From: Photobacterium pectinilyticum
Lineage (GTDB): Bacteria > Pseudomonadota > Gammaproteobacteria > Enterobacterales > Vibrionaceae
Length of the DNA: 64,000 bases
Assembly: GCF_024357955.1 (NCBI RefSeq)
Contig: NZ_JANEYT010000004.1
Span: 1-64,000 of the forward strand
Direction: 5' to 3'
The notes below the pieces were generated by a model that did no database searches, was not told the DNA's origin, and saw nothing but the letters and a program-made list of their open reading frames with translations. Position numbers and translations under genes: made by a program. Below are positions 1 through 44,072 of this stretch, piece by piece (the stretch's first letter is position 1; each line of letters starts with the position of its first letter).

Positions 1-85
1 AGCCACTAGTTACTGCAATATCTGCCTTGATAACAACGATTTTTCCAGTGCAAATACTTGATCAACTACTTATCCAGGTTGGTAT
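1..85 (+). repeat. Palindromic 162-bp repeat family, right part (cut by window edge)
   Basis: These 85 bases match positions 78-162 of the full-length copies at 11268 and 13949, starting just before the central ACTAGT and ending in the terminal AGGTTGGTAT. The remainder of the copy presumably lies outside the window. It is non-coding and sits just upstream of a rho-independent terminator. Confidence 0.85.
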
Positions 86-10535: not shown

Positions 10536-10572
10536 GGCGCCGAAAGACAGCAATTAATAGGTATTGACTACG

Positions 10573-11262
10573 ATGGTAAGACGGATTCTTGTTGTAGAGG
10601 ATGAAGCTCCAATTCGCGAGATGCTTTGCTTCGTTCTTGAGCAGAAGGGATATCAGGCTGTTGAAGCTGAAGATTATGACATGGCGCTTGAGAAACTGTG
10701 CGAACCTTATCCCGAGCTTATTTTGCTCGATTGGATGTTGCCAGGTGGCTCAGGAATTAATCTTATCAAGCACTTGAAGCGTGATGAAATGACTCGTCAG
10801 ATCCCGGTTGTTATGTTGACAGCCCGTGGCGAGGAAGAAGATAAGGTACGTGGTCTGGAAGTGGGTGCGGATGATTACATCACCAAACCATTTTCCCCGA
10901 AGGAGTTGATGGCACGCCTGAAGGCGGTAATGCGCCGCGTTTCACCGACATCTCTTGATGACGTGATTGATGTTCAGGGCCTGAAGCTTGATCCGGTATC
11001 CCATCGCGTAACCTCTAACGAACAACCATTGGACATGGGGCCAACCGAGTTCAAGATGCTTCACTTCTTCATGACTCACCAAGAGCGCGTATACAGCCGC
11101 GAGCAGCTGCTGAATAACGTTTGGGGTACCAACGTGTATGTTGAAGACCGAACCGTTGATGTTCACATCCGTCGTTTGCGTAAAGCACTAGAGACTGGTG
11201 GTCATGATAAATTGGTTCAGACGGTGCGTGGAGCGGGTTACCGTTTCTCGACCCGAGTTTAG
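10573..11262 (+). CDS. phoB: Phosphate regulon response regulator PhoB
   Basis: OmpR/PhoB-class DNA-binding response regulator that activates phosphate-starvation genes when phosphorylated by PhoR. The receiver domain (about residues 1-125) has acidic pocket VVEDEAP, phospho-acceptor Asp in [10 protein letters not shown] (about D53) and Lys in [10 protein letters not shown]; the C-terminal winged helix includes [13 protein letters not shown] and [12 protein letters not shown]. The ATG at 10573 gives 229 residues, equal to E. coli PhoB; the TTG three codons earlier is less likely. A Pho box precedes it. A 162-bp palindromic repeat separates it from phoR. Confidence 0.97.
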
Positions 11263-11267
11263 TAGTA

Positions 11268-11429
11268 ATACCAACCTAAATAAGTATTTGATCAGTTTTA
11301 CTGGTTAAAATCGCTGCTATCTATGTTAGAGATTTTGTAATTAGAGCCACTAGTTACTGCAATCTCTGCCTTGATAACAACCATTTTTCCTGCGTAATAC
11401 ATAGGTCAATTACTTATCCAGATTGGTAT
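11268..11429 (+). repeat. Full-length palindromic repeat between phoB and phoR (162 bp)
   Basis: Begins ATACCAACCT five bases after the phoB stop and ends AGATTGGTAT. It is the same length as the copy at 13949 and clearly homologous throughout, including the central ACTAGT. The two arms are roughly reverse complements, so the transcript should fold into one long imperfect hairpin. It is inserted inside the phoBR operon, before the phoR ribosome-binding site. Confidence 0.9.
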
Positions 11430-11480
11430 CAGTAACAATCAAGCAGGCGCACTGCGGGTAACGTGGTGACGGAGTTATAA

Positions 11481-12785
11481 ATGGTAGAGCGGCTTTCGTG
11501 GAAAAAGTTAGTCTGGGAACTACTCTTTTTCTACTTGCCTTGGATCGCACTGGGGTGGGTATTTGGTTATATGCCCTGGTTTTTGCTGGTCGCAACATGG
11601 ATCCAGTTGATTTGGCATTTTCATAATTTGTTGAAGATGTCTAATTGGTTATGGAAAGAGCGGAGTCTGACGCCTCCTTCGGGATCGGGCAGCTGGGAGC
11701 CTCTTTTCAATGGTATTTACCGTTTGCAGCAACGTAACAGACGTCGTCGCAAAGAGCTGGCAACCTTGATCCGACGCTTTAGAAACGGTGCGGAATCCCT
11801 TCCTGATGCTGTTGTTGTCTTTCGCAGCGAAGGGAATATAGTGTGGTGTAACAAGCTAGCCCAGCACCTGCTTGGCTTCCGTTGGCCGGATGATGCCGGT
11901 CAGCCAATCAGTAATTTGCTCCGGAGTCCGGACTTTGTTCGTTACCTGAGTAAGCAATCTTTTGAGGTTCCGCTCGAAATTACATCGCCGCTCAATTATG
12001 ACCGTACTCTTGAGCTACGGGTCATGCATTACACCGAAGGTGAATACTTGATGGTGGTGCGGGATGTTTCTCAGGTGAAGCAGCTTGAAGGTATGCGCCG
12101 CAATTTCTTTGCTAACGTATCTCACGAGCTGAGAACACCAATGACGGTGCTGCAAGGTTATCTGGAAATGTCGAAAGACCCAGAAATGCTGGTGGGCCCG
12201 ATGTGGAATAAAGCCCACGGGGTGATGACCGAGCAGCTGATCCGAATGAACTCTTTGGTTGAGCAGCTGTTGACCTTGTCAAAGATCGAGGCGGCACCGA
12301 ACATCGAACTCGAAGAGACGATTGATGTTCCGGCAATGTTGGATGTGTTGGAAAAAGAGGCCATTTCTCTCAGCGGTGGTAAAGAGCAGTTATTTACCTT
12401 TGAAGTGGATTCCTCGCTCAAAGTGTTGGGTGATGAAGACCAACTGCGTAGTGCGATTTCCAACTTGGTCTACAATGCGGTTAAGCATACGCCGCCGGAT
12501 GCAGAAGTGAAGGTGCGTTGGTTCCTGACGTCGGCAGGCCCGAGACTGGAAGTCACTGACCAAGGGCAGGGTATCGAGCCGCAGCATATACACCGTCTGA
12601 CCGAGCGTTTCTACCGGGTTGATAAGGCACGATCACGTGAGACTGGTGGCAGTGGGTTAGGTTTGGCGATTGTTAAGCATGCCTTGAGCCACCATGATTC
12701 ACACCTTGAGATCGAGAGTGAAGTGGATGTCGGCAGTACGTTCGCATTTACTTTGCCACAGCGCTTGATTGCAAACGCGGCATAA
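11481..12785 (+). CDS. phoR: Phosphate regulon sensor histidine kinase PhoR
   Basis: Inner-membrane kinase/phosphatase acting on PhoB and gated by the Pst transporter with PhoU. Two hydrophobic segments near residues 10-50 lack a sizeable periplasmic loop, as in E. coli PhoR; a PAS domain follows (about 95-195); the HisKA box [16 protein letters not shown] carries the phospho-accepting His at about 215; ATPase boxes [13 protein letters not shown] (N box), [10 protein letters not shown] (G1) and [14 protein letters not shown] (G2) complete it. The ATG at 11481 is preceded by GGAG. Length 434 residues, usual. The distance from phoB (218 bp) is unusually large because of the repeat insertion. 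Confidence 0.96.
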
Positions 12786-12828
12786 GTACAAAACACGCCG
12801 AATTGGCGGTGAAACATGCTAAAGTATT

Positions 12829-12858
12829 CAGCGGCCTAAGGGCCGCTGTTGTCGTTTT
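12829..12858 (+). terminator. Hairpin between phoR and pstS, probable terminator
   Basis: Perfect 8-bp stem CAGCGGCC/GGCCGCTG with a TAAG loop, followed by TTGTCGTTTT. The weak T-run allows partial read-through into the pstS-like gene, whose start lies only 20 bases downstream. Confidence 0.55.
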
Positions 12859-12877
12859 AAGGAGTTACAATAACCGA

Positions 12878-13873
12878 ATGATTAATCGGATCTGGCAAGC
12901 CATTAGCCGATGGCAGAAAATAGCAATCACTCTTGTTTTTCCTCTGTCTGCCTTTGTCGCAGCTGTCCCCGCTCATGCAGATCATAGCCCGTTGCCTCAT
13001 TACGAAAAGGTGAAAGGGATCTCCGGTAATTTGTCCTCGGTTGGTTCGGATACCTTTGCCAATTTGATGACCTATTGGTCAGAAGAGTTCAAGCGCACCT
13101 ATCCGAGTGTGCATATTCAGGTACAGGCGGCTGGATCGTCAACGGCACCTACTGCTTTGATTGAGGCTACCGCCCAGTTTGGGCCGATGAGCCGGCGGAT
13201 GAAGGCAAGGGAAATTGCGACCTTTGAGCAGGAGTACGGTTACAAGCCAACGGAGATCCGAGTTGCTATCGATGCGTTGGCGGTGTTTGTCAACGAGGAT
13301 AATCCGCTGCAAGGCCTGGACTTTACTCAACTTGATGCCATTTTTTCGCAAACCTTGCGCTGTGGTGGTAACCAATCAATTACCCGCTGGGGGCAGTTGG
13401 GGCTAACAGGCAGTTGGGAAACGCGGGGGCTCCAGCTCTTCGGCCGAAACTCGGTCTCCGGCACCTATGGCTATTTCAAGCAAAAAGCCCTGTGCCAAGG
13501 GGATTTTCGCAATAACGTCAACGAGCAGCCGGGCTCGGCCTCGGTCGTGCAATCTGTATCGACGTCGCTTAATTCTATCGGTTATTCCGGTGTCGGCTAC
13601 CAAACCACCGGGATCAGGGCGTTACCCATCTCCCGCAAAGGGAGTGATTATGTTGCGCCGACCATAGAGAATGCGGCCAGTGGCCGTTACCCATTGGCGC
13701 GCTACCTGTATATCTATGTTAATAAACATCCTGAGCGGCCATTGCCACCGCTTGAGAGTGAATTTATCCGCTTTATCCTGTCGTACCAGGGCCAGGATTT
13801 GGTGAAGAAGGATGGTTATGTTCCCTTGCCTGCCGAGGCGGTGAAGCAAACACTGATTGAGCTGGGCCTTTAG
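12878..13873 (+). CDS. pstS: Phosphate-binding periplasmic protein, PstS family
   Basis: Solute-binding protein delivering phosphate to the PstCAB transporter. The ATG at 12878 follows an AAGGAG 13 bases upstream and starts a signal peptide with cleavage near VPAHA-DHS. Typical PstS features: GNLSSVGSDTFANLM at the mature N-terminus, phosphate-contact segments QAAGSSTAPTAL and GRNSVSGTYGYF, and SIGYSGVGY. At 331 residues it is of the PBP-like subgroup common in Vibrionaceae, distinct from the E. coli type. It sits apart from pstCAB, downstream of phoR. No lipobox, so it is expected to be a soluble periplasmic protein. The longer frame from 12803 begins inside a terminator-like hairpin region and is rejected. 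Confidence 0.88.
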   Translation: MINRIWQAISRWQKIAITLVFPLSAFVAAVPAHADHSPLPHYEKVKGISGNLSSVGSDTFANLMTYWSEEFKRTYPSVHIQVQAAGSSTAPTALIEATAQFGPMSRRMKAREIATFEQEYGYKPTEIRVAIDALAVFVNEDNPLQGLDFTQLDAIFSQTLRCGGNQSITRWGQLGLTGSWETRGLQLFGRNSVSGTYGYFKQKALCQGDFRNNVNEQPGSASVVQSVSTSLNSIGYSGVGYQTTGIRALPISRKGSDYVAPTIENAASGRYPLARYLYIYVNKHPERPLPPLESEFIRFILSYQGQDLVKKDGYVPLPAEAVKQTLIELGL

Positions 13874-13888
13874 CGGGACAATTGATGA

Positions 13889-13920
13889 TAAAAAAGCCGG
13901 AGATGACCTCCGGCTTTTTT
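13889..13920. terminator. Terminator after pstS
   Basis: AAAAAGCCGGAG pairs with CTCCGGCTTTTTT around a short loop. A-run and T-run flank it on both sides, so it can work in either direction between pstS and the oppositely oriented ppx. Confidence 0.9.
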
Positions 13921-13948
13921 ATCGATTCAGGAAAGCTGGAGGCTATTC

Positions 13949-14110
13949 ATACCAACCTACATAAATATTTGATCAGTCTTGCAAGTTAAAATCGCTGTTC
14001 TCTGCGTTAGATATTTTGTAATTAGAGCCACTAGTTACTGCAAAATCTGCCTTGATAACAACGATTTTTCCAGTGCAAATACCTGATCAACTACTTATCC
14101 AGATTGGTAT
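13949..14110 (+). repeat. Full-length palindromic repeat overlapping the 3' end of ppx (162 bp)
   Basis: Reference copy of the family: ends ATACCAACCT and AGATTGGTAT, TGATCA near both ends (13970-13975 and 14084-14089), centre ACTAGT at 14030-14035, and arms such as AAAATCGCTGTT versus AACAACGATTTT. The last 20 bases lie inside the ppx reading frame on the opposite strand and supply its stop codon. Confidence 0.93.
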
Positions 14111-24569: not shown

Positions 24570-24655
24570 CTAGTGGCTCTAATTACAAAATATCTAACGC
24601 AGAGAACAGCGATTTTAACCTGCAAGACTGATCAAATATTTATGTAGGTTGGTAT
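24570..24655 (-). repeat. Half copy of the palindromic repeat (86 bp)
   Basis: On the minus strand this equals positions 1-86 of the 162-bp element, from ATACCAACCT to the central CACTAG, where it stops. It lies directly upstream of the ATG at 24568 and carries the only visible Shine-Dalgarno-like bases (TAGAG). Confidence 0.88.
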
Positions 24656-27297: not shown

Positions 27298-27345
27298 TTT
27301 CCAATCTAGATAAATACGAGATCAACGACTTATCTAGATTGGTAT
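27298..27345 (+). repeat. 48-bp short form of the palindromic repeat
   Basis: CCAATCTAGATAA (27301-27313) and TTATCTAGATTGG (27330-27342) form a perfect 13-bp inverted repeat. It aligns base for base with the other 48-bp copy at 43980, though more diverged, and lies between ppk2 and cutC. The flanking 27196-27384 contains no gene. Confidence 0.75.
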
Positions 27346-43979: not shown

Positions 43980-44027
43980 ATACCAACCTACATAAATACT
44001 TGATCAACTACTTATCCAGATTGGTAT
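43980..44027 (+). repeat. 48-bp short form of the palindromic repeat
   Basis: Starts ATACCAACCT, joins at TGATCA, ends AGATTGGTAT. It equals the full 162-bp element minus exactly 114 bp, the distance between its two TGATCA sites. The 43849-43979 stretch between it and the IS contains no recognisable gene. Confidence 0.88.
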
Positions 44028-44032
44028 AAATA

Positions 44033-44072
44033 TAAAAAAACGCCCCGGTGATTTTCATCACCGGGGCGTTTG
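44033..44072. terminator. Strong terminator downstream of suhB
   Basis: CGCCCCGGTGAT and ATCACCGGGGCG form a 12-bp stem with a TTTC loop; A-run on the left (T-run for minus-strand suhB), TTTGTTGTTTT on the right. Confidence 0.92.

Follow-up and report, generated by a model that had tools for sequence, protein, structure and literature searches.

Results

Six Copies of a Palindromic Repeat

The window analyzed here, a 64,000-bp stretch that starts at base 1 of contig C145 in the draft genome of Photobacterium pectinilyticum (G000; 5.7 Mb, 200 contigs), contains six copies of a palindromic repeat that probably represents a family of miniature inverted-repeat transposable elements (MITEs). All six are present where an initial annotation had placed them, and their end motif, ATACCAAYCT, has 18 matches in the window at one mismatch or fewer, a count attained by no shuffle among 100 (mean, 6.06). 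Two copies are complete and lie on the forward strand. The first (11,269 to 11,428), flanked by TAA and TCA, sits between a 232-aa open reading frame (ORF; 10,564 to 11,262), by eye a candidate phoB, and phoR (11,481 to 12,785; 765.7 bits for NF008235). The second (13,950 to 14,109) is flanked by TCA on both sides and preceded by a hairpin (13,887 to 13,923); the stretch from 13,949 to 14,110 has a fold z-score of -5.70.

While the complete copies had been described as 162 bp long, the element proper is 160 bp, running from TACCAA to TTGGTA between copies of a 3-bp TNA target. The same TNA triplet stands on both sides of 51 of 59 fetched copies (30 from G000 and 29 from other genomes), as TTA in 27, TAA in 23, and TCA in one. 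The outer A and T, one base per side, are therefore part of the target duplication.

The other four copies are shorter. The one at 1 to 84 (forward strand, followed by TTA) is the right half of a 160-bp element and is indeed cut by the edge, since the window and the contig both begin near the middle of the palindrome. The copy at 24,570 to 24,654 (reverse strand), reported as an exact half, is about that: it comprises 85 of 160 bases and breaks just past the center (CTAG). It ends 1 bp short of a minus-strand ATG and provides the sequence upstream of an in-frame ATG, whose ORF starts, by eye, like a signal peptide. Two further places, given as 48 bp, are family members but correspond to 46-bp elements plus flanking bases. 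The element at 43,981 to 44,026 (forward strand) has a TAA target duplication and adjoins a terminator-like hairpin (44,038 to 44,071), while that at 27,299 to 27,344 (forward strand) is diverged, begins with TTCC, and has no target duplication (TTT and TGG).

Two Main Size Classes and a 46-bp Form

Across the whole genome, a strict end pattern occurs 101 + 111 times, against 0 + 0 for the reversed pattern, and blastn finds at least 40 copies with 94 to 100% identity (40 of 207 first-look candidates were scored). We then took a census of 15 long contigs (1,654,041 bp), scoring ends at no more than 5 mismatches in 26, which gave 148 ends as against one in the reversed control. It comprises 67 elements: 33 of 46 bp, 29 of 159 to 161 bp (27 of them exactly 160), and five other deletion forms of 63, 72, 73, 101, and 148 bp; 13 unpaired ends and a 7.3-kb chance pair were listed apart. 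By simple ORF calls (at least 90 aa, ATG starts), which also underlie the placement analysis below, one of the 33 46-bp copies and none of the 29 full copies lies inside an ORF, as befits short elements devoid of coding capacity. Between their terminal inverted repeats (TACC...GGTA) and the neighboring DNA, 52 of the 67 have identical 3-bp flanks (P = 3e-6 against 0.5), including 26 of 33 46-bp copies, 21 of 29 full copies, and all five other forms. One element, at position 173,077 of contig C111, is flanked by a tandem array of the 7-mer GCGATAG.

The 46-bp form consists of two 23-bp ends joined at TGATCA, a sequence present in both arms of the full element, and a deletion between the two TGATCA sites would produce it, keeping just the ~23-bp ends. 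One could imagine that 46-bp copies arise only by in-place deletion in full copies, through slippage between these sites, and are themselves immobile. The junction falls exactly at the repeated TGATCA, and other deletion forms exist. However, there are 33 copies of a single size and only five of other deletion sizes. Moreover, a C at position 19 characterizes 17 of 33 46-bp copies but only 2 of 29 full copies in the census (P = 2e-4), and the same base occurs in two of three 46-bp copies, and in neither of two full copies, of a comparison genome of the same genus (G137), which we take to be Photobacterium lutimaris since 200 bases of flanking sequence from G137 (L031) occur within a contig of that species (L138). 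We therefore regard in-place deletion as a doubtful account of all 46-bp copies. The simplest reading is that this form appears to be an independently spreading lineage, and its diagnostic base suggests that it transposes by itself.

Empty Sites in a Related Species

Of 30 empty-site queries prepared, 20 were compared with P. lutimaris, 16 for copies of 46 bp and four for copies of 159 to 160 bp. Eighteen matched and two did not; three of the matches failed to span the site. None of the 15 loci aligned across the site holds an intact element, although a remnant may persist at one of them and divergence prevents several from being read base by base. No element end (up to 6 mismatches in 26) was detected in any of the 18 matching loci (~2 to 3 kb each). 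The clean case involves a 46-bp copy at C111:62,656, where G000 reads GGAT-TTA-(46 bp)-TTA-CTCAG and P. lutimaris GGAT-TTA-CTCAG. Had TA been duplicated, with the terminal TA lying outside the element, the empty site would read TTATATTA; barring a later deletion, the single TTA excludes this. Regarding the window itself, the element preceding phoR (11,269 to 11,428) is absent from the corresponding P. lutimaris gap, and so is the element at 43,981 to 44,026 from its orthologous site.

In the opposite direction, five P. lutimaris copies were checked in G000. One occupies the same place in both species, and at a second the G000 site looks like a deletion between TAGGTT repeats. The other three comprise one absent from G000 in a diverged region, one unspanned, and one without a match in the part of G000 compared. 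A shared site alongside empty ones indicates that the family was active both before and after the split of the two species. The target duplications and empty sites that the initial annotation proposed to look for are thus both present.

An IS630-Family Element with Similar Ends

The proposed search for a transposase-bearing element with related ends led to a ~1.11-kb insertion sequence (IS). G000 has 13 IS left ends (TACCAATCTAAGTAAAAATATGATC...), all preceded by TNA, of which 12 lie within ~75 bp of a contig end. From the thirteenth, the IS can be followed inward for ~505 bp, which code for the N-terminal half of a transposase of IS630 type. Because the copies sit at contig ends, the IS emerged only from short contigs; in this draft genome, the palindromes and their IS mark contig breaks. 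At the far end of the window contig, C145:145,166-145,240 matches residues 124 to 148 of the IS630 transposase query at 100%, which indicates that an IS copy or fragment terminates this contig as well.

Copies with both ends, found in relatives, mostly measure 1,110 to 1,113 bp and have ends such as TACCAATCTAAGTAAAAATATGATCT and TACCAATCTGGAAAATTAACTGGTCA. Their transposase, with helix-turn-helix and DDE_3 domains, is split between two reading frames overlapping at a run of A; in copies such as L273 and L295, the overlap is at TTTTAAAAAAATT, likely a programmed frameshift site. Against NF033545 (IS630; cut-off 100), the two frames of L273 (genome G133) reach 104 and 157.5 bits, and the second matches PF13358 (DDE_3) with 100.1 bits, which places the IS in the IS630 family. 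Sleeping Beauty was the only solved relative found for this second frame (E = 7e-5). The TA target duplication expected of IS630 is not seen in the flanks of the IS or at the empty site of the MITE. Of 39 unique IS flank pairs, 35 have a TNA triplet at either side, with TCA on either side of both L273 and a related Aeromonas IS (L299), and the empty MITE site has a single TTA.

When hand-picked representative ends of IS and MITE are compared, left matches left at 20 of 26 positions and right matches right at 21, as against 18 of 26 crosswise. Beyond ~26 bp, no resemblance between the interior of the MITE and the IS ends is evident by eye, which argues that simple internal deletion of the observed IS copies did not produce the MITE. 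The ends of MITEs from Psychromonas are closer to a second IS subgroup (L293 and L295; 19 to 22 of 26) than to the first (14 to 18 of 26). Among 150 genomes of the host's family, the G000 transposase half has matches in 49 at E values no higher than 0.001, a number that includes weak and partial matches. MITE and IS occur together in 28 genomes, that is, in 28 of 62 with the MITE as against 21 of 88 others with the IS (P = 0.008, kinship ignored). Relatives of the IS also occur on plasmids, in 40 records of which 26 come from Vibrio.

Other candidate partners were discarded. The Harbinger-type domain PF13359 occurs in one of 150 genomes, with three internal stops, while none of the 10 loci in G000 that match PF01609 has family ends beyond chance-level partial matches. 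Six IS-sized end pairs were found in 2.22 Mb: C22:56,023-60,021 held ordinary-looking reading frames; L138, L031, C77, and C11 involve the ends of MITE copies, judging by coordinates; and L124 was weak.

Distribution Beyond the Genome

The family has matches in 62 of the 150 genomes and in 4 of 13 genera; two of the genera, g10 and g12, presumably are Aliivibrio and Vibrio. Among the matches listed, most span 161 to 163 bp, with identity down to 72%, and a few 179 to 180 bp. A 26-base pattern from the center retrieved 35 stretches with 36 copies, from Photobacterium, Aliivibrio, and Psychromonas. By manual count, the 25 Psychromonas copies comprise 13 of 158 to 159 bp with recognizable ends, four of 182 to 183 bp, seven with a chain of hairpins, and one that is unclear. 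In the seven (in L113, L119, L122, L124, L136, and L139), a chain of small hairpins (AACATCCTGTT, CCACTTCGTGG, CAGCTAAAGCTG...) is inserted near the apex, and a similar chain occurs alone in L134. The four longer copies (L110, L133, L140, and L144) have a ~23-bp insert in the left arm, self-complementary by eye. Elsewhere, a full element is followed after a few bases by the 3' part of a second (genome G113, C79:206-472). Among plasmid records, one, from Photobacterium sp. GJ3, has matches at three places; viral contigs have no match to the end pattern, and phage records have no match. In G000, a right-end-like fragment (CCAGATTGGTATAACAAACGCTTCAAG) near C22:60,000-60,050 (L152/L153) abuts what we take, from its motif, to be a Vibrio superintegron attC site.

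Covariation in a Full-Length Fold

Over its entire length, the element folds back on itself. From a set of 82 copies, of which G000 contributed 30, other genomes 29, and named contigs 23, we aligned 21, thinned below 92% identity and drawn from three Vibrionaceae genera and Psychromonas. From the named contigs, only copies of 155 to 163 bp beginning with TACC were used, leaving out the longer Psychromonas forms. RNAalifold predicts 45 pairs, with 94.2% of cells paired. Changes on both sides affect 20 pairs and 100 cells, as against two cells with one-sided changes and 3 to 12 both-side cells in controls in which the structure was slid. In 500 shuffles, four of five covariation measures were never reached and the fifth (further pair types) was reached by 173; the structure was derived from the same alignment and the sequences are related, both of which favor the result. 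The covariation that the initial annotation had proposed to look for in the stem is thus present, and both causes it suggested, repeated mobilization and a structure kept over evolutionary time, find support.

Within G000, by contrast with this pattern across lineages, 37 distinct copies show 106 departures at paired sites, of which 99 break a Watson-Crick pair and only seven turn one Watson-Crick pair into another. This contrast indicates that it is the propagating lineage, and not each resident copy, that maintains the fold. Compensated changes might alternatively reflect a mutation process in which one arm of the quasi-palindrome templates repair of the other, without selection on the fold. 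An outcome of 100 both-side and two one-sided cells, without G-U intermediates, is what templated correction would be expected to leave. Yet, with seven of 106 departures going from Watson-Crick to Watson-Crick, correction is not fast within copies, and we consider this process possible, if on balance unlikely. We infer that the fold is kept for propagation, or else by arm-templated repair, rather than for a host function.

Copies are concentrated where genes converge. Convergent gaps, which make up 16% of intergenic bases, hold 22 of 32 46-bp copies (P = 4e-11) and, among full copies, 13 of 29 (P = 2e-4). Copies run with or against the upstream gene without clear preference (same:opposite, 11:20 for the 46-bp form and 13:15 for the full form). 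Such crowding at gene 3' ends, together with the strong covariation, is also what one would see if the element were an RNA element of 3' untranslated regions, spread by transposition but kept because its transcript folds and affects stability or termination. Even the strand could be accommodated, since a Watson-Crick-only structure leaves 53 A.C cells (G.U on the other strand) against 11 G.T cells, which would fit a minus-strand RNA. The strand signals disagree, however: two fixed U.G pairs favor the strand opposite to that of the variable A.C cells. One-sided G-U intermediates are nearly absent (two one-sided against 100 both-sided cells), single copies drift in G000, orientation is without clear bias, and the 46-bp copies lack the interior altogether. 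Moreover, Rfam 15 has no match in the window at gathering scores, and six loci searched at E up to 0.1 gave two hits far below them. We thus find an RNA element improbable.

Discussion

On sequence grounds, this repeat is a MITE family most likely mobilized in trans by the ~1.11-kb IS630-family IS, a reading to which we give a probability of about 0.8. The copies are short and non-coding, with inverted repeats and target duplications; they are dispersed, with empty sites in a relative (15 of 20 queried sites aligned across, none with an intact element, one clean), and an autonomous IS has similar ends (20 and 21 of 26). This agrees with the MITE-like option of the initial annotation, and the many covarying copies, with no named match in Rfam or the literature searched, favor a genuine family. 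In the proposed mechanism, the IS630-family transposase would act in trans on the similar MITE ends, insertion at a TNA triplet would duplicate these 3 bp, and copies would settle mostly in gaps at gene 3' ends. The fold would matter for propagation rather than for the host.

We infer mobilization by this transposase from sequence likeness, and several observations weigh against it. IS and MITE are alike over only ~26 bp at each end, and the left/right match is non-specific for Psychromonas MITEs. The transposase half of G000 itself scores 99.3 bits for NF033545, just below the cut-off of 100, and 34 of the 62 MITE genomes, P. lutimaris included, have no match to the IS transposase. Kinship and the weak or partial matches among the 49 IS-positive genomes soften the co-occurrence, only one empty site is clean at base level, and 46-bp forms could also arise in place. 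Finally, only 22 of 39 unique IS flank pairs have the same TNA left and right, a weaker signal than for the MITE and near what two free choices between T and A would give. Unequal pairs could stem from recombination between IS copies, but since the IS flanks by themselves are identical scarcely more often than chance predicts, we have lowered our confidence slightly.

More tentatively, an IS630 subgroup that duplicates TNA might drive a MITE superfamily in marine Gammaproteobacteria, its transposase synapsing a folded-back strand (hairpin or cruciform). If true, this would explain why compensated changes keep the whole 160 bp self-complementary, why Psychromonas copies carry hairpin-like inserts, and how transposition is possible for an element of 46 bp, a length at which duplex DNA is too stiff to form a loop. 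It would then be among the smallest mobile DNAs. The two size classes within one genome offer a natural experiment on the least DNA that a DDE transposase can move, and an interior conserved from Photobacterium to Psychromonas yet missing from the 46-bp form raises the question of the fold's purpose.

We found no description of this family in the literature searched, which was mainly non-subscription and did not extend to ISfinder, where an entry may exist. Among known systems, repetitive extragenic palindromic (REP) sequences moved by REP-associated tyrosine (RAYT/Y1) transposases are likewise intergenic, palindromic, and numerous. However, REP units measure 20 to 40 bp, lack target duplications, and accompany a RAYT gene, for which no search was made here, while our 160- and 46-bp units have 3-bp duplications and an IS630-type DDE partner. 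The REP-like alternative of the initial annotation therefore fits poorly, and we consider it highly improbable. Correia, NEMIS, and RUP elements are short non-autonomous repeats, some with internal-deletion forms, whose sequences and hosts differ from those of our family. Enterobacterial repetitive intergenic consensus (ERIC) sequences are palindromic, and their core motif has no match in the window at up to three mismatches. Like our family, ERIC is an intergenic repeat classed as a MITE and reported from Vibrionaceae as well as Enterobacteriaceae, with a taxon-dependent copy number, according to PMC10969869.

The closest parallels are with the IS630 family itself. ISY100, as described in PMC2170065, has 24-bp inverted repeats that are likely its minimum cis requirement, close to the 23-bp ends found here, and our IS shares with it the transposase family (NF033545, PF13358) and short inverted repeats. 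In contrast, ISY100 and IS630 duplicate TA (2 bp) according to the same paper, whereas here TNA (3 bp) is duplicated and the terminal TA lies inside the element. A 3-bp duplication does occur in the IS630-Tc1-mariner group, in the eukaryotic pogo/Fot elements, most Fot elements duplicating TAA according to PMC7386202; ours has bacterial hosts and TTA, TAA, TCA, or TGA as target. The repeat family can thus be assigned a target rule and a probable transposase, and our findings suggest that part of the bacterial IS630 family may duplicate 3 bp rather than TA. What is distinctive, compared with these systems, is the 3-bp TNA duplication, a 46-bp form marked by a diagnostic base of its own, and a conserved interior that is not evidently derived from the IS.

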